From NCBI RefSeq assembly GCF_900019265.1, contig NZ_CYGX02000008.1:61381-125380 (forward strand): a stretch of DNA of 64,000 nucleotides, written 5' to 3'. The position numbers were made by a program, and so were the translations under genes. The notes below the pieces were generated by a model, which saw only the letters and a list, made by a program, of their open reading frames with translations, was not told the origin of the DNA and searched no databases. The DNA is from Paraburkholderia ribeironis. GTDB taxonomy: Bacteria > Pseudomonadota > Gammaproteobacteria > Burkholderiales > Burkholderiaceae. Shown here piece by piece: positions 7,137-46,694 of the stretch (positions are counted from its first letter, which is position 1; the number at the start of each line of letters is the position of its first letter).

Positions 7137-8036
7137 TCAACAGGGAGCGAGCGCGAAGTGCAACGCCCGTCTGGCTTTCCAGAACGGACGTCCGGGCGCA
7201 TCGTCGCGGACTCCCGTTTCCATCCGGCGCCAACTATTCACAATGTGAGATTTGTCGTTAGACGGCTTGAGCGCAACGAAGAACTCCATATCATTTCGCG
7301 CGGTGTCGAAGAAGTTGACGCAGGCAAGATCGATCAGGTCGAGTTCCGCCATTTCACGGAATAGACGCGCAAACGAGCGGGGCGAAAATACCCAGCAGTG
7401 CACGTCGTGATAGGCCCCATTTTCGAGGCAGTCTCGCGCCACATCCAATGCGGTTTTGACGTCGTGGTGCCGCTCGGTCGAGAAGGGGTCGAGGGGCGAC
7501 TTCCAGGCCGAGATGCAATCCACCTTGGCGACGTTGAGGCAATAGTCGATCAGGATCTGTGGCTGGGGAACCCGTGCGCGTATCAGGTTGCTGTACAGGA
7601 CCGAAGCGATGCGCGTCTCTTCACGGAAGTAATCGAACGTGAAGCGTTTGTCCGGGACGATCAACCGCACCTCGCCGCCGGGATTCAGGACGGAACGCAG
7701 TTCGCTCAACCATGCTATGAGATCCGGCACGTGCTCGATGACATGTGACGCGACCACGTAGTCGACCTGCCTTCCGCCCAGTGCCTGTTCGAGCGTGTTG
7801 GCGCCCCAGACGGCGTCCACCTCGACGATCGCGTCCGCGTGTACGTTGGGGTCGTCCTTGTACTTGTCACGCAGTGTCTGCGTATCGGCGTGATCGACGT
7901 AGATGACGGGCCCGTCGTCCTTGAGAAGAAACGGCCGGCATAACGCGCCGATCTCCAGGCCGAGACTGTCCTTCTGATTGAGGCCGGCGAGGAGCTTTTG
8001 CTTTCGGGTGAGGGAAGAACGGACTGTCGAAATCAT
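7137..8036 (-). CDS. Class I SAM-dependent methyltransferase (glycan operon)
   Basis: The start is supported by AGGAGA seven bases upstream. The 299-residue protein has GLEIGALCRPF as its SAM-binding glycine motif, then IYVDHAD, a VASHVIEHVPD post-I motif and GGEVRLIVPDKRFTFDYF. This is the pattern of methyltransferases found in polysaccharide clusters. It is clearly a paralog of the adjacent gene at 8131-9291, sharing long stretches from the SAM site through DVHCWVF. It is the last gene of the minus-strand glycan operon. O-methylation of a sugar, perhaps capping a chain end, is inferred from context. Confidence 0.75.
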   Translation of the reverse strand: MISTVRSSLTRKQKLLAGLNQKDSLGLEIGALCRPFLLKDDGPVIYVDHADTQTLRDKYKDDPNVHADAIVEVDAVWGANTLEQALGGRQVDYVVASHVIEHVPDLIAWLSELRSVLNPGGEVRLIVPDKRFTFDYFREETRIASVLYSNLIRARVPQPQILIDYCLNVAKVDCISAWKSPLDPFSTERHHDVKTALDVARDCLENGAYHDVHCWVFSPRSFARLFREMAELDLIDLACVNFFDTARNDMEFFVALKPSNDKSHIVNSWRRMETGVRDDAPGRPFWKARRALHFALAPC

Positions 8037-8130
8037 GGGTCTCCTGCGCCAGGCAAGTTATCCAGGTCTTAGTTGAGCCGTTACGATAGCCAGGCGTTCT
8101 GTGCGACGAGCGGCTTGGCGAGCGTGGCCA

Positions 8131-10285: not shown

Positions 10286-11164
10286 TTATGATTGATGAAC
10301 TGGCTGTCCGGTATGAGGATGCGGCCGCGTCGCATAGAAATCAAAAAAATGCTTTTGCCACAATGCGCAGACCAGATCCATCTGATCGACTAGCGCAGCA
10401 TCGAACACGGTCGACGCGTCCGCTTCATCGATCTTCGCCCGCATGCGGTCGAGCAGCAGCTTTTCATAGTCATTGATGCAATAGTCGTGGACCTCTTGCG
10501 CACCGAATGCATAGGCCGAGCAGGGCAGTTCGGGATGCAGGGAGATATAGGTGCTGAACAACCGTTCGACAATAAAGGGCAAAAACGGCGCCGGGTCCGT
10601 ATGCATCGTATCCGTCATGACGGCTAGCGCCGCATCGTGCGATGGGTTCGCTTCGAGAAAGTCGGCAATTGGAAGCAGCGTGCGGCCGACGTACTCGTCC
10701 CAGAACCGTTGCGAGCCCACCCAGAAGTTGCAGTATGCCAACGATTTCGGACCATGCCGTGGCGTATCGCGAATCGTCACACTCACGCCGCTCGCATCCA
10801 GCAGTGCCTGAGCCGCTTGCATCAAGCCGGGATGTGCGTGTTCACCCTGCATCCAGACGTTGTACGACCAGTACGCGAGTTGAGGAAAAGGATTGATGAA
10901 GCAGATATCGGAGTCTGAATGGCGTTGCACGAAATCGAGGAACGCGGCACCGGAGATCTTCGACTTGAGCGTGAATTTCGGGGAAAAGAGTCCGGTGAAA
11001 TCGTGCCGAAGATGATCACCGTTGCGGTACATGTCGATCAGGATCTTGAATTCGCGCCACTCGGGGCGCGAATTATCGGCTCGCACGAGGGGTAAAAATT
11101 CCGCGCAGTTCAGCGTCTGATCCGGCGAGTAGATCGGCTCGAATACCGCGACGGTTTTGCTCAT
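10286..11164 (-). CDS. Uncharacterised glycan-operon protein
   Basis: I do not recognise this 292-residue protein. The start at 11164 is chosen because it overlaps the upstream stop in ATGA. There is no signal peptide and no convincing membrane segment. The sequence is rich in aromatic residues and His, with a segment around INPFPQLAYWSYNVWMQGEHAHPG and a HDYCINDYEKLLLDRM helix. There is no visible GT-A DxD or GT-B EX7E motif. Translational coupling to the histidine phosphatase gene and the surrounding glycosyltransferases suggest a cytoplasmic role in glycan assembly, possibly a divergent transferase. A 164-bp gap downstream separates it from the methyltransferase. Confidence 0.6.
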   Translation of the reverse strand: MSKTVAVFEPIYSPDQTLNCAEFLPLVRADNSRPEWREFKILIDMYRNGDHLRHDFTGLFSPKFTLKSKISGAAFLDFVQRHSDSDICFINPFPQLAYWSYNVWMQGEHAHPGLMQAAQALLDASGVSVTIRDTPRHGPKSLAYCNFWVGSQRFWDEYVGRTLLPIADFLEANPSHDAALAVMTDTMHTDPAPFLPFIVERLFSTYISLHPELPCSAYAFGAQEVHDYCINDYEKLLLDRMRAKIDEADASTVFDAALVDQMDLVCALWQKHFFDFYATRPHPHTGQPVHQS

Positions 11165-11754
11165 ACGTGACCTGCACGTTCGAGGCAGTAGCGGTTCAGG
11201 TCCGCGCGCCATTTCAGATAGGTAAACGATGCATTCGGCACGGTGAAGCTGGGATAGTGCGTCTCGATCGGCACTCCGAGCAGATGCTGCAGCACCACGC
11301 TGATGGGGCCACCATGGGCGACCGCAACCATCAGGCCGGCGTTCTGGACCTGTGGCTTGACTTCCGAATCAACCCACGCTTGCACTCGCTCGGCCATATC
11401 CAGATGCGATTCGCCCTGTTCGTAGCGGTTCCGGATGTTCTTGTTGAAATCCGGATAGGCTTGATTGAAATCCGCCTCGAGCCACGATCCGTATATGCCG
11501 GGATGGGTTTCTGCAAGCCTCGCGTCGAATACCATCGGCCGCGACTCGCCGAAAAGCAGTTCGGCGGTTTGACGCGCGCGAGTCCACGGGCTGCAGTAAA
11601 TCTGCGACGGCTGAAAGGCAAAGCGTTCGAGCGTCGCGGCGAGATTGACCGATTGGGCTTTGCCAAGTTCGGTGAGTCCGTCTTTGTCCGTCGAAATCAG
11701 CAATCCTTTGGCGTTGGCGACGGATTGGCCGTGTCTGATCAGTAAGAGATCCAT
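11161..11754 (-). CDS. Histidine phosphatase family protein (phosphoglycerate mutase-like)
   Basis: The 197-residue protein starts LLLIRHGQSVAN, the catalytic RHG signature of the branch 1 histidine phosphatase superfamily. CSPWTRARQTAE and a later VAVAHGGPI supply the second arginine and the second catalytic histidine. Family members remove phosphate from sugars, nucleotides or cofactors. Embedded in a glycosyltransferase operon and coupled by ATGA to the unknown gene downstream, it probably dephosphorylates a sugar intermediate, as GmhB-like steps do. A housekeeping phosphoglycerate mutase is unlikely given the location and small size. Confidence 0.75.
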   Translation of the reverse strand: MDLLLIRHGQSVANAKGLLISTDKDGLTELGKAQSVNLAATLERFAFQPSQIYCSPWTRARQTAELLFGESRPMVFDARLAETHPGIYGSWLEADFNQAYPDFNKNIRNRYEQGESHLDMAERVQAWVDSEVKPQVQNAGLMVAVAHGGPISVVLQHLLGVPIETHYPSFTVPNASFTYLKWRADLNRYCLERAGHV

Positions 11755-11768
11755 AGGGCGTATTCCAA

Positions 11769-12824
11769 TTAAGCTGGGTTCTCGTCGGTCACGAGTTCCA
11801 GAAAAGTCTTCGCTGGTCCGGCGAGGCCGAACCGCTCATGCGTATCCACGTAAGCCTTGAGTCGCATCGAATCACGCAGTTGCCGGTCCTGATACAACGC
11901 TTCCATCGCGCTGGCCCATTCTTCCCCCGTGTTGTTCACGAGCAAGCCGGTGTCGCCGTGCGAGACCGCCTCTTCGTAGACGGGCGAGCGCGAGTAGATT
12001 CCCGGAATACCCAGGCTGCCGTAGTCGATGTACTTGATGCACGATTTGCAGCTATTGAAGAAGAGCGTGCCGGGATCCTCGCGACCGCCCAGCGGGACGA
12101 TCGAGAACAGATAGCCGGCGTCGCGAATGGCCGCCTTGTACGCTGCGTTTTCCAGAAAGCCCTTGGAAACAAGTCGCGGAATGCGCGACATCTCGGGGAA
12201 CCCGTCGCCCCAGAACTCGAAAGTGACATCGGGATGGCGTTCCAGGAATTCGACGACGACCTTGAAAAACTCTTTCCTGAACTGGACGAGCTTGATGCCG
12301 TCCGTGTTGGAAAACAGGATTTTGGGCGGATTCGTTTCGTGCCACGTCGAAGGGTCGGACGGTAGCGCGTGATGATCGAACCCATTCGGGATGACGACGA
12401 CCGATGGCCTGATCTTGCGCAGCTTGTCTCGCAGGGCCTCGTTCGAGACCGTGGCAATCGACGCCTGGCGGATCAGCCAGGTGATGTTGGCCAGCAAGTC
12501 ATCGTTCAGATCGGTGACGCTGTACATCGGCAAATCGATGATCCAGTCGTCCATATCGTAGATGGTGCGCAGACCGAGGTCGTTGGCCATGCGCATGACA
12601 TCGGTTGCGCGATTCGAACTGTGCTTGTTGAACAGCACGGCATCGAACCGGCGCAACTGCCCGACGGTGACCTCGCTTTCAACGATCTCTTCCCATTCGA
12701 GCATGCCGTTGTGGGCCATATAGCCCAGTAACGGGCCAAAGCGCGCGGCAATCGAGCGCGACATCAATCTGTCGTGCGATAGCGAGATTCGCTGAACCAC
12801 CAATAAGCGCGGAATCTTCGGCAT
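11769..12824 (-). CDS. Glycosyltransferase, GT-B fold with YDMDDW motif
   Basis: ATG at 12824 lies one base after the stop of the upstream gene, which favours this start over the in-frame codon at 12899 and gives 351 residues. The N-terminal half ends in IYDMDDWIIDLP at about residues 88-99, a motif seen in one group of polysaccharide-cluster family 4-like transferases. The second half has IYSRSPVYEEAVSHGDTGLLVNN, the usual end of a GT-B nucleotide-sugar domain. The canonical EX7E is not obvious. It is the fourth gene in the minus-strand glycosyltransferase chain. The donor sugar cannot be assigned. Confidence 0.7.
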   Translation of the reverse strand: MPKIPRLLVVQRISLSHDRLMSRSIAARFGPLLGYMAHNGMLEWEEIVESEVTVGQLRRFDAVLFNKHSSNRATDVMRMANDLGLRTIYDMDDWIIDLPMYSVTDLNDDLLANITWLIRQASIATVSNEALRDKLRKIRPSVVVIPNGFDHHALPSDPSTWHETNPPKILFSNTDGIKLVQFRKEFFKVVVEFLERHPDVTFEFWGDGFPEMSRIPRLVSKGFLENAAYKAAIRDAGYLFSIVPLGGREDPGTLFFNSCKSCIKYIDYGSLGIPGIYSRSPVYEEAVSHGDTGLLVNNTGEEWASAMEALYQDRQLRDSMRLKAYVDTHERFGLAGPAKTFLELVTDENPA

Positions 12825-12825
12825 T

Positions 12826-13809
12826 TCAGATACTTTCCCGTGCGAGCAGCGCAGCGATTTGCGGACCGATGATGGATGCGGAGTGATGGGCCATCGCACG
12901 GTCGTAAGTTGCAGCTACCTTGGCGTGCCGGTCGGTGTCGTTGATCGCGCCCGCGATCGCCGAAGCTATCGAGTCCACCGAGTCCGGCGACGCGTACCAG
13001 ACACCGTTTTCAAAGTGCTCGCGCTGCCAGGGGCCGTCGGACATCACCAGAGGTTTCTGCATGATGGCGCCTTCCAGGCTAGATCGGCCAGGCGGATCGA
13101 TGCTCGGTTCCGCAATCACGCTGCAATTGGCGATGATCGAGCGGAGCAGGGCACTGCAAGGCTGGATGAACGGCAGGAAGGTGATTCCGGAATGAGCCTC
13201 CGCGACGCATTGCCGATAGTAGTCGTCGTCGCGGGCTCCACCCACGAACAGGGCGTCCAGCTTGAGTTGATTCAGCGCGCGGATGGTCTGCAACTGATTT
13301 TTGATGGGTTCGATCAACCCCAGGCATAGTGCGAAGTCCGTAGCGTTGGAAACCGTCGACAGCAGATCTTTGTCGGGTTGCGCGAGAAAGCGGTTCGACA
13401 CGCAGGTGGGCAGGATTTCGATTTTCTCCGCCGGCACCCGGATGTATTGCGTGAAGTTGTCGAGTTCCGCCTGAGACTTGAATAGCAGCTTGTGCGCAAT
13501 CCGCGTAATTTCCTCGACGCGCTCGACCTCGCTGGCCGGAATGGGGCCGAGCCACCAGACGTTCGGCCAGAGGAAGATGCGCTTGTTTCTGACTGCTGCT
13601 TCGCGCAGGATCGCGTGGCTGTCGGCGTGCACGGAGAAATGAATCACGCCGTCGTAGAAGCTCAGCGGGCGGCTGCCGATGCCATAGATGTCGATGTGGA
13701 CGCCGGAAGCCTTGAGTATTTCCGCCACCTGGACGAGTTCCGATTCGCCGCCTCCGCTAACGGTGAAAGCGGTGCTGTACGTTGTCAGAATGAATTTAAG
13801 GCCGGTCAT
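12826..13809 (-). CDS. Glycosyltransferase, family 4-like
   Basis: The 327-residue protein opens with ILTTYSTAFTVSGGGESELVQVAEIL, the start of a GT-B fold with a glycine-rich acceptor loop, and the same arrangement as the protein encoded at 20207-21178. The C-terminal half has EPSIDPPGRSSLEGAIMQKPLVMSDGPWQREH, occupying the position of the retaining EX7E element though with altered spacing. It overlaps the upstream gene by ATGA and runs to one base before the next start. Both overlaps point to one transcript. The donor and acceptor are not identifiable. Confidence 0.72.
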   Translation of the reverse strand: MTGLKFILTTYSTAFTVSGGGESELVQVAEILKASGVHIDIYGIGSRPLSFYDGVIHFSVHADSHAILREAAVRNKRIFLWPNVWWLGPIPASEVERVEEITRIAHKLLFKSQAELDNFTQYIRVPAEKIEILPTCVSNRFLAQPDKDLLSTVSNATDFALCLGLIEPIKNQLQTIRALNQLKLDALFVGGARDDDYYRQCVAEAHSGITFLPFIQPCSALLRSIIANCSVIAEPSIDPPGRSSLEGAIMQKPLVMSDGPWQREHFENGVWYASPDSVDSIASAIAGAINDTDRHAKVAATYDRAMAHHSASIIGPQIAALLARESI

Positions 13810-14873
13810 GCGTTGCTCCGCTGTGCGTCTGCTTCAACAAGTAAGTCTTGCCACGCAGAATCGCTGGTGCGCTGAAGGATTTCGTTTGCGTGCGCGACAT
13901 ACGCCGAATCGATCCGGTTCCCCGCTGCAGATTTGCTGAGGCGGTTTGCGATCGCCAATGCCCAGACGGAGAGATCGGCTTCGGGCGCGAACACCCAGTC
14001 CGGCAGGCAGAGCTCCTGGGCCGCCGTGCCGCCCCGGACAAAGACCGGCTTACCGAAGTGCATCGCTTCGAGCACGGGCACGCAAAAACCTTCGTGCCGG
14101 CTCATCGCGAGCAGCGCGCTGGTGGCGTCGTAGCAGTCGAACAGATCCGCGTCGTCGAGCGTGCCCTTGAAGTCGACGCGCTCCAGCACGCCTAGCCGCC
14201 GTGCGTGATTGATCAGAAGCTTCTGGTACTCATAGTTCGGTGAGCCGCCGACGATCGTCAGCGTCGCGTCGAGCTCGCGCTGTTTCAACAGCGCGAGGAT
14301 GTCGATTCCGTCCTCGATGCGCTTGTGCGGCACGACGCGGCCCACCATCAGCAGATTGGGCTCGCGTGAACTGGCGCCCGCCGCAGCCGCTTCGCGCTGG
14401 AAGACCGGCATGTCGGCAAACACCGGTGGAATGACTTTCACCGCCGCGACATCGAGCATGCCGGCAAGGCTTGCCGCGGTGCTGTGCGAATTGGCCACCA
14501 CGACATCGAATCCGGCGAGCAGGGGCAATTGCGCGAGGGCCAATTCGCACAAGCGTGCAGTCGGCGGTTCGAGTTCGCGCAGCAGCTGCGGATCGGTCAC
14601 GCCATGGAAGTAGCAGATCTTTCTGCAGTTCAGTGCGAGCAGCCGTTCGAGATAGGGATCGAAGATCGAATAGCTCAGCAGCACCACGTCGTCTTCAGCC
14701 ACGGTGGCGAACAACTCTTCAAGCGGTCGAACACCGGACATGCCCACGTCGTAGAACTGCGCGTAGAGTTCCGCGGCAAGGCCCAGCCGCGAGGCCGCTC
14801 GGGCGATGCCCAGGCAGTGGTTGCCCACCGCGTCGCCAGAGAAAATATCCGGAGCACACACGCGCAGCGTCAT
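13806..14873 (-). CDS. Family 4 glycosyltransferase
   Basis: ATG at 14873 overlaps the upstream stop in ATGA, giving 355 residues; an in-frame upstream extension to 14972 lies inside the repeat-fusion gene and is unlikely. The protein begins LRVCAPDIFSGDAVGNHCLG, and LMVGRVVPHKRIEDGIDIL introduces the donor domain. EGFCVPVLEAMHFGKPVFV gives the EX7E motif typical of retaining GT4 enzymes, with a following GGTAAQEL loop. It follows directly from the 1058-residue repeat-glycosyltransferase gene and probably adds an adjacent sugar in the same chain. Confidence 0.8.
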   Translation of the reverse strand: MTLRVCAPDIFSGDAVGNHCLGIARAASRLGLAAELYAQFYDVGMSGVRPLEELFATVAEDDVVLLSYSIFDPYLERLLALNCRKICYFHGVTDPQLLRELEPPTARLCELALAQLPLLAGFDVVVANSHSTAASLAGMLDVAAVKVIPPVFADMPVFQREAAAAGASSREPNLLMVGRVVPHKRIEDGIDILALLKQRELDATLTIVGGSPNYEYQKLLINHARRLGVLERVDFKGTLDDADLFDCYDATSALLAMSRHEGFCVPVLEAMHFGKPVFVRGGTAAQELCLPDWVFAPEADLSVWALAIANRLSKSAAGNRIDSAYVAHANEILQRTSDSAWQDLLVEADAQRSNA

Positions 14874-17800
14874 TTGCCCTTTACCTCCGCAAGCCTCCGC
14901 GCGTACGCGCGCGCGACCGCTTCGACCGAATAGTCTCGAACAATGCGTTGCTGGCCCGCCTTCGCGATGCACTCGCGTAGCGCGACGTCGTCGATCACGC
15001 GCCTGAGTTGTTCAGCCGCGATCGAAACGTCCGGGTCGCACCAGTACTGGCCCTCGGAGAACAGATAGTCGCCAGCACGCAGCGGGATGAGATCCCCGTC
15101 CACCAGGAAGGCCGTATCGGGTTCGCAGAAGTCGACGTTGCCCGAGAAATTGGTCACGACGACCGGCTGACCCAACGCCATCGCTTCGGCAATCACGCGT
15201 CCGAACCCTTCGCTACGATGGAGCGAGATGTAGCTGTCGCAGCAGGCCATGAAGTCGATTGAGTCCTGGCGGCTCAGACGTTCCGACACGATGTGAATGC
15301 GGCTATCGCCGGCGGTGGTATCGCACACGGCGCGCCATACCGGATCGTCGTCGCGCACGTTCATCGCCTTGATGACGAGCCCGACGCCCGGCGAGGTCTC
15401 ACCGAAGGCCTGCCGGAATGCCTGCACACCGGCGAGGGGATTCTTGCGGCTAAGCCACGAATTGCCGTCGAACATCAGATAGAACAGGAACTCGTTGGCC
15501 GGCAGGTTGAAGCGTGCGCGATCAGGATGCACCGGCGCGGGCACTTCGACCGCCATCGGCATGCGATAGACCGGCGTGTCGCCCAGCCGGCTGTAAACGC
15601 TCTGGACGAATTTGCTTTGCGCCCAGATCTCGTCGACCATCTGATGGACCTTGCCGAACGCGCTGGGCCAGTGAGGCAGCTCCCACGGCCACGCGCCGAT
15701 CTTGTGCGTGGGCGCGTCGATCAGCTTGCGGCCGCCTTCCAGCGCGAGGCGCACCATCTCCGGCGCCGGCAGGCAAATCAGGCTGATGCCGTACTTGAGC
15801 TCGTCGCTCAGCAGGTGATCGACCGACGTGTCCAGCTTTGCCGGCCCGGACATCGGCGCATTAACGAGGACGACCGGTGTCGACGTCAGTTGGAGAACGC
15901 GCGCGGCCATCCGTGCATCTTCGCCGAGGCCCAACACCCCTTGCGGAAAGCCCACGATGTTCACCCCGAAACCATATCCGTGTTCGACACGGGCGTAGTA
16001 ACGCGGCGGTTCGTCTGACTTCGCACCAGCGGGGGTTTCCCCGCGATGGACCTTCAGCGAGCCCAGCAGCGGATACTCGTGACCGCCGAATTCATTCCAC
16101 CAATGCACCAGCTGTTCGCGGCCCGCGTCGGTGCGGATGTCAAAGGCGGCCCGCAGGTCCGGGCGCTCGTTGGCGATCATCTCCAGGAAACGAGCGACCG
16201 GCGACGCACCGGCCGCCTGCTCGTCGCCCATACGAGCCAGCGCATCGGCCAGACCTCTCGCGGACCACTTGATCGCGTGGTACTCGTTTTGACCGCTCTG
16301 ATTCCACCATGACAGGTAGTTCAGGCGAGCGCCGAAGCTGTCGAGGTTGAACGCGGTTTGCAAGTCGGGGCGTTCGTTGTGGATCAGGCTCAGAAATCTC
16401 GGGATAAGCGGCAACGCGCAATGTTCGCCCGGTTCCATCTCGAACAGTTCCGCCGGCAAACCTGGTGTGACCCATCGAATCGACGGGTACTGGGACTGTC
16501 CATGCTCTACCCACCACGAAAGAGCGTTAAGGCGGCCGATAAAACTGTCCTCGGCGCAAAAGGCCTGTAGGTCCACCCGCTCGTCGAGGATCGCCCGCAG
16601 GAAGCGCGGCAGGGGCAACCAATCGGGGTGCGCGCCCCAATCCATCTCGAACAATGGGCCGGGCACGCCGGCTGGCACCCACTTGATCGCGAGATACTCG
16701 TCTTTACCGTCGTCGTCCCACCACGTCAGGAAGCTCAGGCGCGCGCCGAAGCTGTCGAGGTTGAATGCCGACTGCAGATCGGGTCGTTCACTCCAGATGA
16801 GACGCAGGAATCGCGGAATGAGTGGCAAAGCGCAATGTTCGCCGGGCTCCATATCGAACAATGCCGCGGGCAATGCCGACGCGTCCCAGAGAATCGCCGG
16901 GTATTGGAACTGTCCATGTTCGACCCACCACGAAAGAGCGTTGAGGCGGCCGATAAAACTGTCGAGATTGCAGGAGCCCTGTAAATCCGGCCGCTCCTGG
17001 AGGATCAGCCGAAGGAATCGCGGCACCGGCAGCCAGTCGGGGTGCGCGCCCCATTCCATCACGAACAGGGGCGCGGGCATGCCGGGCGGTACCCACTTGA
17101 TCGCCCGATACTGGAGTTGTCCGTGTTCCAGCCACCATGAAAGGCAACTGATCCGCCCGGTAAAGCTCAGCAGGTTGAATGCGGTTTGCAGGTCGGGCCG
17201 CTCCTTGATGATCAAGGAGATGAAGCGCGGAATGTCCAGACCTTCGTCGTCGACCGGCTGTTCCGGCTCAAGCATGGCCCTGCCGATCGGCGGGGCCGCC
17301 CACCTGATCCGCGCATACTCGCGGTGGCCGTGCTCTTTCCACCAACTGAGGCAGGCCAACCGGCCGGTGAACGTGTTCAGGTCGAATGCGCTGCGCAGGT
17401 CGGGGCGTTCGGTCGCAATGAGCGCGAGGAAACGCGGAAAGGGCATTGCGTCGGCATCGGCATCGTCGATCGCCTCCACCAGTTTCGGCCACGAGACGGG
17501 CACACTCCACGTCACTCTCGGACAGGCAGCCTGACCATGCGCTTCCCACCAGTCGAGGCAATTCAGATAGCCGGTCAATGTGCCAAGATCGAACGCGCTG
17601 GACAGATCGTTCCGGGTGCCGACTATCATCGTGATCAACCTGGGCAGTTGCAGCCCGGCTTGTTCACACACCGTTTGCGACTCGAGCATCGTCTCGGCGA
17701 GATGCCTCGTATCGAGCACGCTCGGCGCGGTCGAGCCCAGCCAATAGGTGACGGCGCGTGGATGCCGCGCGATCAGCGACTCGTTATCGAGTTGATGCAA

Positions 17801-18046
17801 GTACTCCAGGTCCTCAGGACGAAGGACCCACTCGAAGTCGGGATAAGTTTCCCGCGCCGTCATTTCCCACCAGAAATAGAGCGTCAGCCGGTCATCGAGC
17901 GCCTTCGAATTGAAGCGCGCCAGATCGGCTCTGAACTTCATCAGAAAATAGATCGCGCTCGGCAGGCAAAACAGCTCGCTCGGCGATGGGTGGCGGTACT
18001 CGGCCAGCCACCCGGTCTTGTTCGTTCTCCCCGCCTGATTAACCAA
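14870..18046 (-). CDS. Family 4 glycosyltransferase fused to tandem 69-residue WW repeats
   Basis: This is a 1058-residue two-part protein. Residues about 28-663 hold repeats of the pattern (I/L)PRFLxLIxxERPDLQxAFNLDSFxxRLxxLSWWxxHGxxEYxxIxW. The WW pairs fall at residues 166, 235, 304, 373, 442, 511, 580 and 649, exactly 69 apart; a degenerate copy has WW at 59. Residues about 690-1058 are a GT-B enzyme with VNIVGFPQGVLGLGEDAR, a WLSRKNP donor-domain start and EGFGRVIAEAMALGQPVVV as EX7E. TTG at 18046, overlapping the upstream TAA, is the probable start because the first degenerate repeat precedes the ATG at 17941. The repeat family was not recognised. It may scaffold protein or glycan contacts. 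Confidence 0.8.
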   Translation of the reverse strand: MVNQAGRTNKTGWLAEYRHPSPSELFCLPSAIYFLMKFRADLARFNSKALDDRLTLYFWWEMTARETYPDFEWVLRPEDLEYLHQLDNESLIARHPRAVTYWLGSTAPSVLDTRHLAETMLESQTVCEQAGLQLPRLITMIVGTRNDLSSAFDLGTLTGYLNCLDWWEAHGQAACPRVTWSVPVSWPKLVEAIDDADADAMPFPRFLALIATERPDLRSAFDLNTFTGRLACLSWWKEHGHREYARIRWAAPPIGRAMLEPEQPVDDEGLDIPRFISLIIKERPDLQTAFNLLSFTGRISCLSWWLEHGQLQYRAIKWVPPGMPAPLFVMEWGAHPDWLPVPRFLRLILQERPDLQGSCNLDSFIGRLNALSWWVEHGQFQYPAILWDASALPAALFDMEPGEHCALPLIPRFLRLIWSERPDLQSAFNLDSFGARLSFLTWWDDDGKDEYLAIKWVPAGVPGPLFEMDWGAHPDWLPLPRFLRAILDERVDLQAFCAEDSFIGRLNALSWWVEHGQSQYPSIRWVTPGLPAELFEMEPGEHCALPLIPRFLSLIHNERPDLQTAFNLDSFGARLNYLSWWNQSGQNEYHAIKWSARGLADALARMGDEQAAGASPVARFLEMIANERPDLRAAFDIRTDAGREQLVHWWNEFGGHEYPLLGSLKVHRGETPAGAKSDEPPRYYARVEHGYGFGVNIVGFPQGVLGLGEDARMAARVLQLTSTPVVLVNAPMSGPAKLDTSVDHLLSDELKYGISLICLPAPEMVRLALEGGRKLIDAPTHKIGAWPWELPHWPSAFGKVHQMVDEIWAQSKFVQSVYSRLGDTPVYRMPMAVEVPAPVHPDRARFNLPANEFLFYLMFDGNSWLSRKNPLAGVQAFRQAFGETSPGVGLVIKAMNVRDDDPVWRAVCDTTAGDSRIHIVSERLSRQDSIDFMACCDSYISLHRSEGFGRVIAEAMALGQPVVVTNFSGNVDFCEPDTAFLVDGDLIPLRAGDYLFSEGQYWCDPDVSIAAEQLRRVIDDVALRECIAKAGQQRIVRDYSVEAVARAYARRLAEVKGK
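16117..17572 (-). repeat. Tandem 207-bp coding repeats inside the glycosyltransferase fusion gene
   Basis: Eight units of 207 bp encode the 69-residue repeats. Adjacent pairs are more alike at alternate positions: the repeats with WW at residues 373 and 511 share GAHPDWLP leaders, and those at 442 and 580 share GEHCALPLIPRFL. This suggests a 414-bp two-unit segment was duplicated most recently. DNA near 16500-16560 and 16916-16975 is almost identical over about 55 bases. Confidence 0.8.
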
Positions 18047-20210
18047 GATCTGCGATCCTCGAAGGCCATGCGAAAGAGAAGTCGTCGGCGTTCAGCGTCA
18101 GATTCGGCGAGTAGCAGGGGTCGTTCATCAACAGATCGCCCCAGCGCTGCCTGACCAGCTCGGATTCCTGGTTGAAGCGGATGATCTTCTCAGGCGTGTC
18201 TTCAGCGCCGCGCGTGGCCGACTCGTGGTGATACAACTCGGCATACGGCGTGAAAACGTTTCGGTAGCCCGCTTTGCGCACACGCAGGCAGAAATCGATG
18301 TCGTTGTACGCGATGTGCAGTTCCTCGTCGAGGCCGCCGACTTCCTTGTAGATCGATTGACGGATCAACAGGCAGGCGGCGGTCACGGCGCTCATTGCGT
18401 TGCGCAGGCGTGCGCGGGCAAAATAGCCTGCCATCGTGTTGGGGAAGTGCTTGTGGGCGTGGCTCGCAATGCCGCCCACGCCGAGCACGACGCCGGCGTG
18501 CTGGATGGTGTCGTCCGGATACAGCAGCTTGGCGCCGACTGCCCCCACACTCTTCTGCAATGCCACCGAGACCATTTCTTCCAGCCAGTCGGCGTTGATG
18601 ACTTCGATATCGTTATTCATCAGGCAGACGAAGTCGGCGCTGCTGCCTAGTGCGACGCGATTGTTCAGTGCCGAGTAATTGAATGGCGAGTCGTCGCGCA
18701 CGACCTTGATACGCTCGTCCTGTTGCAGACGCGCGAACAGATCGTGCGTTTCCTGTTTCACCGAACCGTTGTCGATGATCGTAATGCGGAAGTTCTGATA
18801 GCTCGACTTCTGGCGCACCGATTCGACGCATTGTTCGACCAGCGCCGCGGAGTCGCGTGTCGGAATGATGATGTCGACTGAAGGCAGCACGTCCGGCAGC
18901 GCGTACACCACCTTGTTGAACGCGTGAGTGCCCGGTGCGTGGATCGTGTGCGCGTTGATGTTGTTGCGCTGCAGGTGGTCGTCGATCGCGCGCATTGCCG
19001 CGATGTGCGCGTATGGCTTGGCTTCATGGCCGCTCGCGGTGCTCTCCGGAATGATCCGCCAGTGATAAAGCGGGCGTGGAACGTGATAGACCACGTCATG
19101 CCCGGCCCGATCGATCACGCGCAGCGCGAGGTCGTAATCCTGGGAGCCTTCGAGCCCGGTGCGGAAACCGCCGATCTCTTTCATTACCGACGTTTTGTAG
19201 ACGCCGAAGTGCGAGATCATGTTCTGGCTAAGGAACAGGTCGTAGTTGAAGTCTGACTTGAAGTACGGTTCCGAGCGAGCACCTTCTTCGGAGATCTTGT
19301 CTTCATCGCTATAGATCAGTGCTGCGTCCGGATGCGCGTTGATCATTTCGACCATGCAATAGAGCGCCAGCGGATGCAGTTCATCGTCGTGATCGAGCAG
19401 ACCGACGAACTCGCCGGTCACCAGCTGCAACGCCGTGTTGCTCGACTCGCTGATGTGGCCGTTCTTCGTGCGATAGGCGACCTTGATCTGTTCCGGATAC
19501 CGGGCGACATAATCGTCCAGCACAATTTTGACTTCGGCGTTGGTCGAGCAATCGTCTGCAATGCAGATTTCCCAGTTTTCGTAGACCTGGTCGATCACCG
19601 AGTCGAGCGCCTTGCGCAGCCACTTCTCCGGCGTGTTGTACGTCGGCATGAGAATGCTGACCGTGGGTTGCAACTCGAACGTTTTCGACCGTTCGCGCAA
19701 CCGCGGATAGATGGACGCGGGCGGTTCATGTGCGTCGAGCCATTCCTGATATGACTCGCCGACGATCGGCGCGGTAGCCGGCAGAGGACCGCCTCGCCAT
19801 GCCGCGATCCGGCGCGCGCGCGCCAGAAGTTCCTGCGAGCATTCCGATTCGTCGAGAAGTTCGATCTTCAGGTTTTGCACGGAGAAAGACGCCGGAAGTG
19901 CGATCGGGTCGAAACGAATCGGGCCGACCAGCGTGGGGAACGCAACGTCCTGTTCGACCTTGCCGCTCGCGTCGACGAGCAGGCCAATCGCGCTATGTTC
20001 GGACATGCCCGATCCCGCATCGACGTAAATCATGCAAGGAGATGACGCCGGCGTGTCGACCTTGAGCTCGAACGAAATATGCGCCGCTCGTTCTGACAGC
20101 GCTTCCCAACCCACCAGTTCGAACTGCGGGTCGTTGTTGGTGGCTTGCCAGGAGAAGGCGGGGTTCGAGGATATCTCGACGTTATTCAGAGGACGAAGTT
20201 CGAAGTTCAT
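18039..20210 (-). CDS. Two-domain family 2 glycosyltransferase
   Basis: ATG at 20210 overlaps the upstream stop in ATGA, giving 723 residues. After a roughly 180-residue N-terminal region of unknown role comes a first GT2 domain: VSILMPTYNTPEKW, then ADDCS and GLLDHDDELHP as the metal site at about 272-276, and later the YHWRIIPEST segment. A second GT2 domain starts near residue 443 with VDIIIPTRDSA, then IDNGS and CLMNNDIEVI. Paired GT2 domains are common in rhamnan or O-chain synthases that add alternating linkages. It is second in the minus-strand operon, immediately ahead of the repeat-fusion gene. Confidence 0.82.
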   Translation of the reverse strand: MNFELRPLNNVEISSNPAFSWQATNNDPQFELVGWEALSERAAHISFELKVDTPASSPCMIYVDAGSGMSEHSAIGLLVDASGKVEQDVAFPTLVGPIRFDPIALPASFSVQNLKIELLDESECSQELLARARRIAAWRGGPLPATAPIVGESYQEWLDAHEPPASIYPRLRERSKTFELQPTVSILMPTYNTPEKWLRKALDSVIDQVYENWEICIADDCSTNAEVKIVLDDYVARYPEQIKVAYRTKNGHISESSNTALQLVTGEFVGLLDHDDELHPLALYCMVEMINAHPDAALIYSDEDKISEEGARSEPYFKSDFNYDLFLSQNMISHFGVYKTSVMKEIGGFRTGLEGSQDYDLALRVIDRAGHDVVYHVPRPLYHWRIIPESTASGHEAKPYAHIAAMRAIDDHLQRNNINAHTIHAPGTHAFNKVVYALPDVLPSVDIIIPTRDSAALVEQCVESVRQKSSYQNFRITIIDNGSVKQETHDLFARLQQDERIKVVRDDSPFNYSALNNRVALGSSADFVCLMNNDIEVINADWLEEMVSVALQKSVGAVGAKLLYPDDTIQHAGVVLGVGGIASHAHKHFPNTMAGYFARARLRNAMSAVTAACLLIRQSIYKEVGGLDEELHIAYNDIDFCLRVRKAGYRNVFTPYAELYHHESATRGAEDTPEKIIRFNQESELVRQRWGDLLMNDPCYSPNLTLNADDFSFAWPSRIADLG

Positions 20211-21178
20211 TTTGTCAGCAGGGAATCGTAGAGGTCTTTCAGGGGAGACAGGACAGCTTGCCACGTCAGGTCGCGCGCCGTGTCCAGAGTGCCGGCGCGC
20301 GGTTGTGCGAGGGCCTCGCCGATCGACCGCGCAACGCTCTCCACATCCTGCGGATCGAGATAAGCGACGTGCCGCGCAAAGTATTCTTCGGTAGAGCCAA
20401 CTTTCGTCACCGCGATGCGTGCACCCGCGGCATGCGCTTCGAGCGCGGCGAGCCCGGGCGTCTCCAGCGTGCTGGGCAGCACGAACGCTTCGCAGGCCGC
20501 GTAGGCGGAGCGCAGCAGCGGCGAATCATGAGCGAGCGTGCCCGCATAGATGAGCTGGTCGCCGCCTTCCGCGAAGCACGCCTGCGCGTATTGCGGATCG
20601 CGTTGATGGCCGATCAGCACGAGCTTGAGGTCGGGGAACGACTTCATCGCCCTGATGAGCGCCAGCTGGTTTTTGCGCGGCTCGATATTGCCGACGTTCA
20701 GTACGAAGCGATCCTCGATCCTCAATTCGCTGCGGAACAGCTCCGGCGCGACCGGCTCATAAAAGCTCTCTTCGACGCCGTTGAGCACGCTGACGAATTT
20801 TTCGCGCGGCAGGTCGAAGATTCGCGCGAGCGTCTCGCACTCGATTTCCGAATTCGCCACCACCCGGTCCGCGAGCGAGAACTGATGATGAATCTCGCCG
20901 ATCGGATAAAGATGCTTCGTCTCCTCGGTCACCCAGAGACTAGACGAAACCACCAGCGGCAAGCCCAATTGTTTAACAAAGTTACAGAAGTGGACCGAGC
21001 CGCCGACGCATGAAAAGAAGTGAACCACATCGTGTTCGAGAAAGCGTGGGTTCCACGGATCGAACAACGTGACATCCACGCCATGAGCGGGCAGGTGTCT
21101 GCGATAGGCGAGCAACTGGATCTCTCCGCCGCCGGGGGTGTGGAAGGCCATGGGGTAGGTGGCGAACAGCACTTTCAT
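20207..21178 (-). CDS. Family 4 glycosyltransferase, first gene of the minus-strand glycan operon
   Basis: The 323-residue GT-B protein begins VLFATYPMAFHTPGGGEIQLLAY, with the glycine-rich loop near the N terminus. FVLNVGNIEPRKNQLALIRA starts the donor domain, and LETPGLAALEAHAAGARIAV is the EX7E motif. It is the most upstream gene of the run ending at 7137, so its promoter should lie in the 646-bp region between it and the divergent epimerase gene at 21825. The sugar transferred is unknown. Confidence 0.8.
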   Translation of the reverse strand: MKVLFATYPMAFHTPGGGEIQLLAYRRHLPAHGVDVTLFDPWNPRFLEHDVVHFFSCVGGSVHFCNFVKQLGLPLVVSSSLWVTEETKHLYPIGEIHHQFSLADRVVANSEIECETLARIFDLPREKFVSVLNGVEESFYEPVAPELFRSELRIEDRFVLNVGNIEPRKNQLALIRAMKSFPDLKLVLIGHQRDPQYAQACFAEGGDQLIYAGTLAHDSPLLRSAYAACEAFVLPSTLETPGLAALEAHAAGARIAVTKVGSTEEYFARHVAYLDPQDVESVARSIGEALAQPRAGTLDTARDLTWQAVLSPLKDLYDSLLTK

Positions 21179-21824
21179 GAATGGGCTCTATATGCTCAAA
21201 CGTTTTCTTTTCGTCAGACCAGCGCATCGTGCGACGCGTGCCGACACGGCGTCGGACACTGCGGACCTAAACGATGCGGAACGGCAATCCGTGAGAGGTG
21301 CGAGTGCGCCCGGGTCGGTATGCTGCGCGATCTTCGCACGGGGACGCGCTGCGCGGCTTCATGGCCTTCAGGCGCTGGCTCACCGCGGTGCGGGCCGCTA
21401 GTCGCTCACGCCACTCGGGGGCGAGCGTGAGTGTGCTGTCGTCGAGCACGTCGGATCGAAACCACGAATTCCACATGCGCGAATATGTTTGAGTTGTTAC
21501 GAAATGTAGGGGCTACACCCCGGTGGGCGTCCGTCCGCTTTATTATCACGGCCGAAGCCTTTCACCATGCATTCAGTTCTGCTTTCGGTCTGTTAGCCGC
21601 TGACGCATTCTAGCGCCTAAACATCGCGTGTAGCGGGCCGCGGCGCAAGTTGACCGCATACAATACGTTCCCAATCAGACTTCCAGAGAAGCACCGCCGA
21701 TGCCAGATTGTATCGTGTCTCATCCGCCATTCCTGTCGCATGCAATCAGGACAAGTTCTGAGCGCGCACGCTCGCGTTTCCTGGCATGGCGGGTCGGCTC
21801 GGTCGGTTCACAGGAAGTGCGCCC
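21179..21824. other. Divergent intergenic region, no supported gene
   Basis: This 646-bp region separates the minus-strand glycan operon from the plus-strand epimerase gene and must hold both promoters. The middle, about 21480-21620, is visibly more AT-rich than the coding DNA around it. Short open frames exist on both strands but none has a convincing ribosome site or recognisable product. I found no clear paired -35/-10 element and no JUMPstart/ops-like GGCGGTAG. Confidence 0.5.
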
Positions 21825-22784
21825 ATGACCCTATGTGTTCTGATCACCGGCGCTAACGGCTTCGTCGGCAAGGCGCTCTCGCGCGCACTGCTGCAGCGTG
21901 GTGATCGCGTCGTCGGTGTGGTGCGCCGCGCGCAAACGGTCGTCGACGGTGTGCGCGAATGGCTGCTCGACGCGGATGACTTTCAGGGCATCGAACAGCG
22001 CTGGCCGGTGGCGCTGCATTGCGATGTGGTCGTCCATCTCGCGTCGCGCGTCCATATGATGCGCGAAACCTTGGCCGATCCATTGCCGGCCTATCGCGCG
22101 ACTAACGTCGATGGCGCGTTGCGTGTCGCCGCCGCGGCGCGTCGCGCGGGCGCGCGCCGCCTGGTTTTCGTCAGCAGCATCAAGGCGGTGGCCGAGAGCA
22201 GCGTAGGCCGGCCGATCACGGAAACAGACGAGCCCGCACCATCCGATCCCTATGGCATCTCCAAACTCGAAGCCGAGCGCGCGCTCGTCGACTACGGTCG
22301 CAAGTCGGGTCTCGAGATCGTGATCGTGCGACCGCCGCTGGTCTACGGTCCGGGCGTGCGCGCCAACTTCCTGCAACTGATGAACGCGCTCGCCAAAGGC
22401 GTGCCGCTGCCGCTCGGTGCGATCGCCGCGCGGCGCAGCCTCGTGTTCGTCGACAACCTCGCGGACGCGCTCGTGCATTGCATCACCGACCCGCGTGCCG
22501 CCGGCCACACCTTCCACGTCACCGATGGCCGCGATCTGAGCGTTGCGGAGCTGGCGCGGGCGCTGGCGCAGCAACTGCACGCGCCGGCGCGCCTCGTGCC
22601 GGTGCCGGTCGGCGTGCTGCGCGTCGCCGGCCGCCTGACCGGCCGCACGGCGCAGGTCGACCGTCTGATCGGCGAGCTGCGCCTCGATAGTTCGCACATC
22701 TGCGAATGTCTTGGCTGGTCCCCGCCGCATACCGTCGAGCATGGCTTGCTGGAGACGGCCGCCTGGTATCGCGCGACGCATTGA
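21825..22784 (+). CDS. NAD-dependent epimerase/dehydratase (WbiG-like position)
   Basis: ATG at 21825 has AGGAAG nine bases upstream and is preferred over an in-frame codon at 21786, giving 319 residues. VLITGANGFVGKAL is the Rossmann GxxGxxG, VFVSSIKAV gives the catalytic Ser region and DPYGISKLEAE the YxxxK pair of the extended short-chain dehydrogenases. Order epimerase, WecA-like transferase, WbpM-like dehydratase matches wbiG-wbiH-wbiI in Burkholderia O-antigen loci. It probably makes the C4 epimer of the sugar loaded by the next gene. Confidence 0.82.
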   Translation: MTLCVLITGANGFVGKALSRALLQRGDRVVGVVRRAQTVVDGVREWLLDADDFQGIEQRWPVALHCDVVVHLASRVHMMRETLADPLPAYRATNVDGALRVAAAARRAGARRLVFVSSIKAVAESSVGRPITETDEPAPSDPYGISKLEAERALVDYGRKSGLEIVIVRPPLVYGPGVRANFLQLMNALAKGVPLPLGAIAARRSLVFVDNLADALVHCITDPRAAGHTFHVTDGRDLSVAELARALAQQLHAPARLVPVPVGVLRVAGRLTGRTAQVDRLIGELRLDSSHICECLGWSPPHTVEHGLLETAAWYRATH

Positions 22785-22845
22785 AACGCGTTGCAACCAA
22801 ACTGAACTGAACCGCACTGAACTGACTCCGGACTGCTGACTAACG

Positions 22846-23868
22846 ATGTCGATTGCTTCAGATCTTGCCTTTCCCGCCGTCCCTCTGTTGCTGTGGGGCG
22901 TCGTCGCGCTGGGCGCGTGCGCGGCGATTCTGTGGGCGCTGCTCACGAGCGGTCTCGCCTGGCGTCTCGCCACGGACATCCCCAACGACCGCTCGCTGCA
23001 CACCCGGCCGACACCGCGCGTCGGCGGCTGGGGTATCGTGCCGGTGACCGTGGTGCTGATCTGGCTGGCCGCGCCGGCGCTCTGGCTGCCTGCGCTGGCG
23101 GCGGCGCTGCTGGCCGCGTTGTCGCAAATCGACGACCGCCGCGGCCTGCCCGCGCGCATACGCTTCGGCGGCCACGCGGCGGCAGTGGCGGCGCTGATCG
23201 CCATCTACCCCGCCGAGGTGCCCTGGTGGGCGCTGGCGGCCATGGCGGTGCTGCTGGTCTGGCTGGTCAATTTATACAATTTCATGGATGGCTCGGACGG
23301 TCTCGCAGGCGGCATGGCGTTGTTCGGCTTCGGCGGCTACGCGATCGCCGCGTCTGTCGCGAACCATCCGGACTTCGCGCTCGCGCTGGCGTGCGTGATC
23401 GTGGCGGGCGCGGCGGCGGGCTTTCTGCTGTTCAATTTCCACCCCGCGCGGATTTTTCTCGGCGACGCCGGCTCGATCCCGCTCGGCTTTCTCGCCGGCG
23501 CGCTCGGCTACTGGGGCTGGCGCGAAGGCGTGTGGCCAGTGTGGTTCCCGGCGCTGTGCTTCGCGCCGTTCATTGGCGATGCATCGGTGACGCTGCTCAA
23601 GCGCCTCGTGCGCGGCGAAAAATTTTGGCAAGCGCACCGTGAACACTACTATCAAAGACTGGTGCAGTCCGGTTTGGGACACGCATCAACGGCATGGATT
23701 TGGTATTTGTTCATGGCGGCGGGCATAATGCTTGCTGTCTGGGCACTACAATTTGCTGTCCTGTATCAATGGCTGGTTGTCGTCGTTTGGGCTGCCGTGC
23801 TGGCGGTCGCCGGGCTATGCATTGATTGCCGCTGGCGCCGTTATGCGTCCCGTTCCAGGCAATCCTGA
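22846..23868 (+). CDS. WecA/WbpL-family polyprenyl-phosphate sugar-1-phosphate transferase
   Basis: The 340-residue integral membrane protein has about ten helices. It shows the family signatures NLYNFMDGSDGLAGG (Asp-rich catalytic loop) and FNFHPARIFLGDAGSIPLGFL (third cytoplasmic loop). These enzymes start O-antigen or glycan chains by moving a HexNAc-1-phosphate to undecaprenyl phosphate at the inner membrane. Between the epimerase and the WbpM-like gene it takes the wbiH/wbpL place, so its likely donor is the UDP-sugar those enzymes produce. The stop lies 11 bases before the next start. Confidence 0.88.
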   Translation: MSIASDLAFPAVPLLLWGVVALGACAAILWALLTSGLAWRLATDIPNDRSLHTRPTPRVGGWGIVPVTVVLIWLAAPALWLPALAAALLAALSQIDDRRGLPARIRFGGHAAAVAALIAIYPAEVPWWALAAMAVLLVWLVNLYNFMDGSDGLAGGMALFGFGGYAIAASVANHPDFALALACVIVAGAAAGFLLFNFHPARIFLGDAGSIPLGFLAGALGYWGWREGVWPVWFPALCFAPFIGDASVTLLKRLVRGEKFWQAHREHYYQRLVQSGLGHASTAWIWYLFMAAGIMLAVWALQFAVLYQWLVVVVWAAVLAVAGLCIDCRWRRYASRSRQS

Positions 23869-23879
23869 GGTTATACGCA

Positions 23880-25760
23880 ATGAAAAGATTCAAAGCCCGA
23901 TGGCTTTCGTTCAGTGCGTTTGCGTTCGATCTATGCGCGGTGGCTCTGGCCTGGATGCTGGCATACGTGATCCGTTTCAACGGTCCGGTGCCAACGCCGT
24001 TCTGGTCGAGCGGCATGCATGCGCTGGTGTGGGTGCTGCTGATCTACGCGGTCATGTTCCGCAGCTACGGGCTGTACCGGGGCATGTGGGTGTTCGCCAG
24101 CCTGCCCGATCTCGTGCGTATCGCCAAGGCGATTGGCGTCGGCGCACTGGTCGTCGTGATCGGCTCGGCGCTGCTGCAACCGGTGCCAGTCGTGCCGCGC
24201 TCCGTGCTGATCGTCTCGCCGATGCTGCTGTTCCTCGCGATGGGCGGCTCGCGCGCGCTCTATCGCGCGGCCAAGGAGTTCTACCGCTATGGCGGCCTGG
24301 TTGGCCAGGGCAAGCCGGTGCTGGTGCTCGGCGCGGGCAATGCCGGCGCGAACCTCGTGCGCGAGCTGAAGCGCTCGGGCGAATGGCGTCTCGTGGGTCT
24401 GCTCGACGACGACCTGGTCAAGCAGGGCCGCGAAATCTACGGCTACCGCGTGCTCGGCGCGATCACCGATCTGCACAAGATCACCGCCGACCTGAAAGTC
24501 GAGCACGTGATCATCGCCGTGCCGTCGGCGCCGGTGGAAGTGCATCGGCGCATCGCCACGCTGTGCGTGCGCGCTGGTGTGCGGGCGATGACGCTGCCCG
24601 CGCTCACGCCGCTCACCCAGGGCCAGGCGTTCCTGTCGCGAGTGCGTCAGATCGACCTCGAAGACCTGCTGGGCCGCGACCCGGTGACGATCGACACGGA
24701 GCATGTCGGAGCGCTGCTGAAGAACCGCGTCGTCATGGTGACGGGAGCGGGCGGCTCGATCGGCTCGGAGCTATGCCGGCAGATCCTGCGCTTCGGCCCC
24801 GTGCAACTGGTGGCGTTCGATATCTCCGAGTTTTCCATCTATCGTCTGAACGAAGAGCTGCGCGACAAATATCCCGAAGTGTCGGTGGTGCCGATCATCG
24901 GCGACGTGAAGGATTCGCTGCTGCTCGATCAGGTGATGGCGCGCTACTGTCCGCACATCGTGTTTCATGCGGCGGCCTACAAGCACGTGCCGTTGATGGA
25001 AGAAGTGAACACCTGGCAGGCGGTGCGCAATAACGTGCTCGGCACGTATCGCGTGGGGCGCGCAGCGATCCGCCACGACGTCGCGCATTTCGTGCTGATC
25101 TCCACCGACAAGGCCGTCAACCCGACCAACGTGATGGGCGCGAGCAAGCGCCTCGCGGAGATGGCCTGCTCGGCGCTGCAGCAGCAGGGCACGCGGCGCA
25201 CCCAGTTCGAAACCGTGCGCTTCGGCAACGTGCTGGGCAGCGCTGGCAGCGTGATTCCGAAGTTCCAGGAGCAGATTGCGCGCGGCGGTCCCGTCACGGT
25301 TACGCATCCGGAGATCACCCGTTTCTTCATGACGATTCCCGAAGCGTCGCAACTCGTGTTGCAGGCGTCGAGCATGGGCCGCGGCGGCGAGATCTTCATT
25401 CTCGACATGGGTAAGCCGGTGCGCATCGCCGATCTCGCGCACGATCTGATTCGCCTGTACGGTTTTAGCGAGGAGCAGATTCGCGTGGTGTTCACCGGTC
25501 TGCGGCCTGGCGAGAAACTTTACGAAGAACTGCTGGCGGACGATGAAACGACCACTCGCACACCGCATTCGAAGCTGCGCATCGCGCGTGCGCGTGAAGT
25601 GCCGGACAGCCTGGTCGACAATCTGCTGCCGTGGCTGATGCAGCACCGCGTGCCGACCGACGACGAAGTGCGCCGCGACCTGCGCCGCTGGGTGCCCGAG
25701 TACCAGCCGGCCACCACTGCCGCACTGCGCAGCGTGACGCCGGCGACGCGGGTGTCGTAG
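23880..25760 (+). CDS. Membrane-bound nucleotide-sugar dehydratase, WbpM/CapD family
   Basis: ATG at 23880 with GAGGT upstream gives 626 residues. Four membrane helices cover about residues 10-125. A CoA-binding-like Rossmann domain with VLVLGAGNAGANLVRE comes next, then the catalytic domain with VMVTGAGGSIGSELCRQ near residue 286. VLISTDKAVNPTNVMGASKRLAEM carries Met where most relatives have Tyr, the altered SMK triad known for WbpM-type C6-dehydratases. It should convert UDP-GlcNAc to the 4-keto-6-deoxy intermediate that leads to sugars such as QuiNAc or FucNAc. It ends 33 bases before a shared terminator. Confidence 0.9.
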   Translation: MKRFKARWLSFSAFAFDLCAVALAWMLAYVIRFNGPVPTPFWSSGMHALVWVLLIYAVMFRSYGLYRGMWVFASLPDLVRIAKAIGVGALVVVIGSALLQPVPVVPRSVLIVSPMLLFLAMGGSRALYRAAKEFYRYGGLVGQGKPVLVLGAGNAGANLVRELKRSGEWRLVGLLDDDLVKQGREIYGYRVLGAITDLHKITADLKVEHVIIAVPSAPVEVHRRIATLCVRAGVRAMTLPALTPLTQGQAFLSRVRQIDLEDLLGRDPVTIDTEHVGALLKNRVVMVTGAGGSIGSELCRQILRFGPVQLVAFDISEFSIYRLNEELRDKYPEVSVVPIIGDVKDSLLLDQVMARYCPHIVFHAAAYKHVPLMEEVNTWQAVRNNVLGTYRVGRAAIRHDVAHFVLISTDKAVNPTNVMGASKRLAEMACSALQQQGTRRTQFETVRFGNVLGSAGSVIPKFQEQIARGGPVTVTHPEITRFFMTIPEASQLVLQASSMGRGGEIFILDMGKPVRIADLAHDLIRLYGFSEEQIRVVFTGLRPGEKLYEELLADDETTTRTPHSKLRIARAREVPDSLVDNLLPWLMQHRVPTDDEVRRDLRRWVPEYQPATTAALRSVTPATRVS

Positions 25761-46640: not shown

Positions 46641-46694
46641 GCGCCGCGGTGCTGGTGGGGATTGGGCGACGCGCGTGCCGCCGTGCGCCGGAGC

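Follow-up and report, generated by a model that had tools for sequence, protein, structure and literature searches.

The DNA analysed here, referred to as the window, is a stretch of 64,000 nucleotides from Paraburkholderia ribeironis. Its minus strand carries a 1058-residue open reading frame (14870..18046; TTG start at 18046, stop at 14870), here called repeat-GT, in which a row of tryptophan-rich units precedes a predicted glycosyltransferase. Frame 1 of the plus strand contains several stops across this region, and long plus-strand frames of up to 395 residues overlap the gene. All near neighbours lie on the minus strand as well. Upstream is a protein with two GT2 domains (dual GT2, 18039..20264), whose gene overlaps that of repeat-GT by 8 bp, preceded by a further conserved neighbour, a GT4-type enzyme (20207..21178). 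Downstream follow gtC, another GT4-type enzyme (13806..14873), whose likely ATG overlaps the stop codon of the repeat gene in an ATGA; the glycosyltransferase gene gtB (12826..13809) and a histidine-phosphatase family protein (11161..11754), both assigned by domain scan and locus comparison; and gtA (11769..12899), a likely glycosyltransferase with Pfam matches below their cut-offs. Purine-rich stretches precede the starts of both the repeat gene and gtC. We compared 28 related loci (L001-L028). The GT4 neighbour was recovered in all 28, gtC and gtB in 27 each, gtA and the phosphatase in 26 each, and dual GT2 in 25, counted as best tblastn matches, with varying strand and order and with paralogues possibly included. 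In ten loci of the same genus, part of the neighbour set is inverted and more distant. The placement of repeat-GT in an operon with other glycosyltransferases, as proposed in the initial annotation, is borne out by the overlapping genes and by neighbours kept in 25 to 28 of the 28 loci. A conserved 308-residue protein without Pfam match (10286..11212, minus strand) is shared by the related loci, whose hosts range from Paraburkholderia to Polynucleobacter and Rahnella. Between dual GT2 and repeat-GT, the Rahnella locus L022 has a 588-residue protein (7196-8962, plus strand) that matches HAD hydrolases weakly.

What type of locus is this? Methyltransferases lie downstream of repeat-GT. At 21786..25760 on the plus strand, domains and gene order define wbiG-, wbiH- and wbiI-like genes (an epimerase, PF00953 and PF02719). 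To the left of the window, at a distance of 8-15 kb on the same contig, are rmlB-, rmlA-, rmlD- and manC-like genes together with a Wzm/Wzt-like pair, names that we presume from the Pfam domains. The pair (Wzm-like, PF01061, 67 bits; Wzt-like, PF00005, 73.8 bits) sits at about 51.6-53.2 kb of contig C61, 8 kb left of the window, and presumably exports the glycan of this cluster. Since the Wzm/Wzt-like pair, the rml/manC-like genes and the wbi-like genes occur together, this is likely an ABC-transporter (Wzm/Wzt) O-antigen locus. The names wbiG, wbiH and wbiI come from an O-antigen locus of B. cenocepacia (PMC5462993). Transposon insertion into a P. phymatum GT2 gene that adjoins genes of similar kinds is reported to abolish a rhamnose-containing O-antigen (PMC11841133). 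At 3896-7093 the plus strand encodes a 1065-residue protein that has some 14 hydrophobic stretches and gives no Pfam match; it also adjoins the cluster in L017 (84% along its length) and in partial form in L006, L007 and L019.

Tryptophan pairs occur at residues 59, 166, 235, 304, 373, 442, 511, 580 and 649 of repeat-GT. The last eight are spaced exactly 69 residues apart, just as the initial annotation had stated. It had also called the units exact repeats; this holds for their spacing and fails for their sequences, which are 25-77% identical in protein (77% being reached by one pair) and 38-79% in DNA. All units run on the minus strand. Unit 0 (WW59; residues 28-73, 17828..17965) lies inside a conserved N-terminal cap. 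By pair spacing and unit profile it is followed by unit 1 (WW166; residues 134-202, 17441..17647), unit 2 (WW235; residues 203-271, 17234..17440), the block of units 3 and 4 that underwent duplication (WW304 and WW373; residues 272-409, 16820..17233), an extra two-unit block of units 5 and 6 (WW442 and WW511; residues 410-547, 16406..16819), unit 7 (WW580; residues 548-616, 16199..16405) and the final unit 8 (WW649; residues 617-661, 16064..16198), after which a linker begins. TRF reports a 414-bp tandem repeat within the gene, equal to two units. The units hold 29 tryptophans in 534 residues, compared to 7 in 394 for linker and glycosyltransferase (GT) domain.

An iterated profile of the unit, with 47 positions and built on 329 units, gives each of the nine copies 51-85 bits; 1000 shuffles of residues 1-670 peak at 9.5 bits, and the other 395 frames of the window at 3.3 bits. 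In the whole genome, repeat-GT alone matches well (nine units, E<=1e-11); the next match has E=0.63. The copy around WW59 had been described as a degenerate ninth. At 51 bits with the unit profile, and with 81-89% identity in 14 close loci, it is on the contrary the best conserved unit between species as judged by sequence, and a decaying copy is ruled out by the same two observations.

The GT4-type catalytic domain spans residues about 690-1055 (14882..15979, minus strand). Both PF00534 (35.5 bits, cut-off 26.4) and PF13692 (34.7 bits, cut-off 27) match above their cut-offs, so that the C-terminal part of repeat-GT is a predicted GT4-type glycosyltransferase and the earlier description of a repeat region joined to such an enzyme is upheld. 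The E946-x7-E954 motif (EGFGRVIAE; 15185..15211, minus strand) is invariant in 34 aligned sequences, a set in which our protein (P0001) is joined by 33 of 50 further proteins retrieved with residues 90-680; we take it to be the EX7E motif in the C-terminal lobe of GT4-type enzymes. A Foldseek search with the full model of repeat-GT returns solved GT4-type enzymes as best matches (E down to 6.8e-12, TM by target about 0.6-0.7), and these enzymes, as we understand them, have the GT-B fold. As modelled, the GT domain is of the GT-B fold, with weak stretches within it. Catalytic domain, motif and Foldseek match are shared with other GT4 enzymes (PF00534/PF13692), whereas repeat-GT carries about 690 extra residues in front, mostly repeats.

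Does the repeat belong to a catalogued family? Pfam, NCBIfam and PDB sequence searches yielded no convincing match covering the units, in line with the initial annotation, which had recognised neither a TPR, ankyrin or HEAT repeat nor a known carbohydrate-binding repeat. No TPR, HEAT/ARM, ankyrin, LRR or other Pfam repeat matches repeat-GT above its cut-off. At E<=1, LRV_2 is the sole repeat family (14.5 bits, cut-off 27; residues 205-220, with no stretch passing), and carbohydrate-binding Pfam families (CBM) are absent. Two labels on relatives were discarded: PF20900 (Pasteurella toxin C3), a precomputed label on P0036, rescans at 25.9 bits, below its cut-off of 27 and with no stretch passing alone, and was taken as chance; DnaB_bind (PF10410) on P0041 scores 40.5 bits overall against a cut-off of 20.6 with no single stretch passing, and was taken as a repeat effect. 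In an AlphaFold2 model (pLDDT 86.6), a short-short-long pattern of helices recurs unit after unit; the longest helix of the array has 18 residues and there is no coiled coil. A regular packing of units is predicted from secondary structure and confidence values only. Foldseek and VIA-align comparisons with the PDB gave no clear relative. With the full-length model, matches to GT4-type enzymes prevail and reveal nothing about the array. Among viral structures, 36 matches were obtained at E<=10 and none at E<=0.001. No description of such a repeat was found in the open-licence literature. Our best reading is that the unit is an undescribed, glycosyltransferase-associated helical repeat. The module is new as far as searchable; that an O-antigen enzyme may carry a structural spacer is a known idea.

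How did the array arise? The window piece was aligned with those of 23 out of 24 loci. Between close species the units correspond position by position: the closest counterparts of window units 0-7 in other species are 59-89% identical, those of units 5 and 6 in the extra block 59% and 71%. Perfect periodicity had been read as a possible sign of recent expansion. With units matching those of other species at 59-89%, and ranging from 25 to 77% within the protein, this explanation is lost, and a recent, homogenised expansion is ruled out by the unit-for-unit matches. In the 14 close loci, identity to the window is 76-85% for the cap, 61-74% for inner units and 63-71% for unit 8; for the GT domain it is 86-89% in the 11 of these loci that were scored (18 of the 24 overall, the six without detectable motif being left out). 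Pairwise dN/dS in six comparisons is 0.09-0.16 for units, 0.07-0.14 for the cap and 0.04-0.10 for the start of the GT domain, values that indicate purifying selection on orthologous units.

Unit number itself is variable. Comparing copy number between relatives, as had been proposed, gave 5 to 10 units among 22 Paraburkholderia and Burkholderia loci (L001-L021, L023). Within the protein, the window block [5,6] is closest to [3,4] (65% and 74% amino acid identity; dN/dS between the copies about 0.3), and the seven-unit relatives L007, L008, L009, L011 and L019 have no counterpart of units 5 and 6. The duplicated block is [3,4] in the window, [4,5] in L001-L004 and L010, and [3,4,5] in L005, and these differing borders suggest more than one duplication event. 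In L005, one duplicated pair has a dN of 0.10, above its dS of 0.07. L006 was not counted as carrying the same duplicated block, because its units 6-8 resemble units 2, 4 and 5 (71, 61 and 65%); its unit 3 fell out of register in this comparison. A tree of GT domains was built from 105 of 121 proteins, after removal of the 16 in which the expected GT start motif was missing. On this tree, 52 of the 58 proteins in the Burkholderiaceae-type clade require no fewer than 17 changes of copy number; the others are P0033, from a short contig, and five rows that repeat a retained row exactly or almost so. The figure is rough, given the many weak branches and the chance that the start of some listed proteins is placed too late. 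Two proteins of Paraburkholderia sp. MM5384-R2, P0025 with 7 units and P0034 with 5, are identical over their last 552 residues, which take in the last two units and the GT domain, and differ before; unlike N-terminal arrays thus sit on the same C-terminal part, as gene conversion might leave them. The genome of P. fungorum (G642) encodes two repeat-GTs, separated by about 860 kb, the first in a window-like locus. The second (L113, 7683-10109, minus strand) has five units and lies beside RgpF-GT2 and GT2-methyltransferase genes. In L024, repeats and GT part are in different frames.

The unit is not restricted to this genus. A search with residues 90-680 yielded 51 proteins, the window's own included, all 51 with GT4 Pfam domains; a search with an Azospirillum member yielded 43, of which 42 have GT4 domains and the exception, P0061, looks cut off. 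Counting the source genome each time, the unit is present in at least 32 of 144 genomes of the genus, at least 5 of 200 of the family and at least 12 of 398 of the phylum, lower bounds obtained by scoring the best candidates per genome. By sequence, then, the unit occurs across Proteobacteria, beside glycosyltransferases wherever domains are readable. Few units precede distant GT4s, compared to the 5-10 of the Paraburkholderia and Burkholderia loci, and P0041 has 15 of about 67 residues. In the phylum search, L086, L087, L088 and L091 are weak matches (below 20 bits with the unit profile), and L079, L082, L083, L085 and L089 have one or two units within long frames. Plasmids gave 55 matching records; among the matches listed, 24 of 30 begin at residue 629 or later and cover mainly the GT part. 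In P0045 of Rhizobium rhizogenes, the unit sits in a longer, near-identical tandem duplication of about 114 residues.

Three architectures end in a GT4 domain. In that of the window, a conserved cap is followed by units; in P0048, P0053 and P0054, several units follow a front half that by eye resembles GT8-like proteins; in G014 and P0041, 8 or 15 units of about 67 residues follow a front segment without convincing Pfam match. In addition, one unit alone is found near the C-terminus of the GT8-like proteins P0062, P0063, L078, L080, L081 and L084. Their GT8-like front half, with an LDPDI motif, is missed by Pfam in five of the six, P0062 among them; the one GT8 match, in P0063, scores 21.6 bits and stays below its cut-off of 24.3. 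Do stand-alone copies exist, as the initial annotation had wished to see checked? A profile of three to four units, run against proteins of about 153-487 residues, gave four matches (P0060-P0063), none of them built solely of units: P0060 and P0061 are on short contigs and look cut off, and P0062 and P0063 have the GT8-like front half. This search, which found no protein of units only, scored only candidates sharing exact words.

What might such an array do? The initial annotation had offered that it could hold the growing glycan, measure its length or recruit partner enzymes; recruitment and spacing agree best with our findings. We tentatively propose, at somewhat less than an even chance, that the array is a docking and spacer arm holding the catalytic domain at a set distance from partner enzymes in O-antigen assembly. 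The N-terminal cap would dock on a partner, either another glycosyltransferase of the operon or a membrane complex, the array would set reach and geometry, and the GT4 domain would add one sugar. Gain or loss of units would re-tune the reach to a given polysaccharide, and repeat-GT and its partner enzymes would likely build O-antigen. This proposal builds on the position of the units between two ends in several architectures, on a unit number that varies while the enzyme is little changed, and on the coupled genes. Multiprotein assembly complexes have precedent in ABC-transporter O-antigen synthesis (PMC11231755). The partner, the membrane contact and the polymer of the arm are putative, and the duplicated L005 pair with dN above dS counts against it. 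The argument from conserved ends is weakened, since the dN/dS of the cap is hardly below that of the units; the ends are better kept than the middle by identity, and for the cap hardly so by dN/dS. Because the second P. fungorum repeat-GT adjoins other enzymes, there would be no fixed partner. Close loci carry 7, 9 or 10 units where the downstream neighbour set is inverted and 7 or 9 where it is co-oriented, an overlap that rules out a copy number fixed by the gene set.

Could the array instead be a molecular ruler, in which polymerising and terminating sites are kept apart by a distance that depends on unit number and in turn determines O-antigen chain length, like the coiled coil of WbdD? 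The varying copy number on a little-changed catalytic domain, the P0025/P0034 pair within one strain and the downstream methyltransferases would suit such a role, as would a locus resembling the ABC-transporter type, in which rulers are known (PMC11231755). We nevertheless hold it unlikely, for the distal domain is a GT4 and not a known terminator, and the model lacks a coiled coil. An alternative that we rate as similarly improbable is a glycan-holding groove, where conserved aromatics in each unit bind the growing chain and render the glycosyltransferase processive. In 83 inner units of the close clade, P2, L15, W33, W34, G38 and W47 are conserved at 100% and R12 and D14 at 98%; together with the tryptophan richness of the units, the invariant W33, W34 and W47 could also be explained by a sugar-binding surface, which speaks against the arm. 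Among 28 diverse units, however, only R12, D14 and W33 are invariant. The second tryptophan of the pair is replaced by F, Y, A or C in this set and by I in another unit, and W47 is absent from the 67-residue unit type, a pattern expected of core rather than ligand residues; nor, as noted, does a carbohydrate-binding Pfam family match.

Least probable to us is a passive domain for solubility, membrane association or oligomerisation, with a unit number that drifts without functional meaning. Frequent copy-number change is what drift predicts, and L025 has one detectable unit and L027 and L028 one or two, by count; the low dN/dS of the units and their position-specific conservation across close species argue otherwise. 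A broader notion, which we consider doubtful, combines an R-x-D-L...W module, a hitherto unnamed repeat fold serving as a general plug-in of proteobacterial surface-polysaccharide glycosyltransferases, with a Paraburkholderia copy number acting as an adjustable ruler of stacked helical repeats in place of a coiled coil. Were it true, gain or loss of whole units would allow species to alter the length of their O-antigen or the reach towards the acceptor.

Repeats on a glycosyltransferase have a familiar counterpart in the TPR-fused O-GlcNAc transferase, a GT41 enzyme in which a solenoid of 34-residue TPRs binds protein substrates; unlike it, repeat-GT has no TPR Pfam match. Closer to the present locus are the coiled-coil rulers of WbdD and WbbB (PMC11231755): like the array, as we read it, they are extended regions that can be tuned in length, carried by a protein of an ABC-transporter O-antigen complex, and they provide a scaffold for other enzymes. 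They are coiled coils, whereas repeat-GT has units of short helices: a WbdD-type coiled coil between polymerase and terminator is absent from the predicted array, which has no helix above 18 residues. They also control length, a role that is hypothetical for repeat-GT, whose enzyme is a GT4 and not a known terminator. Similarly, the K. pneumoniae O4 terminator ORF7 (PMC11231755) shares with repeat-GT a helical, repeat-like segment inside an O-antigen glycosyltransferase. In ORF7, a chain terminator that depends on Kdo (GT137), the TPR-like helical bundle is followed by a coiled coil, while the unit of repeat-GT has no TPR Pfam match and a period of 67-69 residues.

A question in many ABC-transporter systems is how the glycosyltransferases of an O-antigen cluster come together and at what distance from one another they act. 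Variants that differ naturally in copy number, set on catalytic domains that have changed little, offer material for relating arm length to chain length or partner choice, and the arm, if real, would represent a novel means by which bacteria tailor their surface sugars. The O-antigen of Paraburkholderia matters in plant symbiosis: a P. phymatum mutant without rhamnose-containing O-antigen is reported to be defective in symbiosis with Mimosa pudica (PMC11841133). Elsewhere in the window, two nearby arrays of 9-bp tandem repeats were observed at 46692-46823 and 48219-48345, AGCACGTGA-like and GAAGCGTGT-like.
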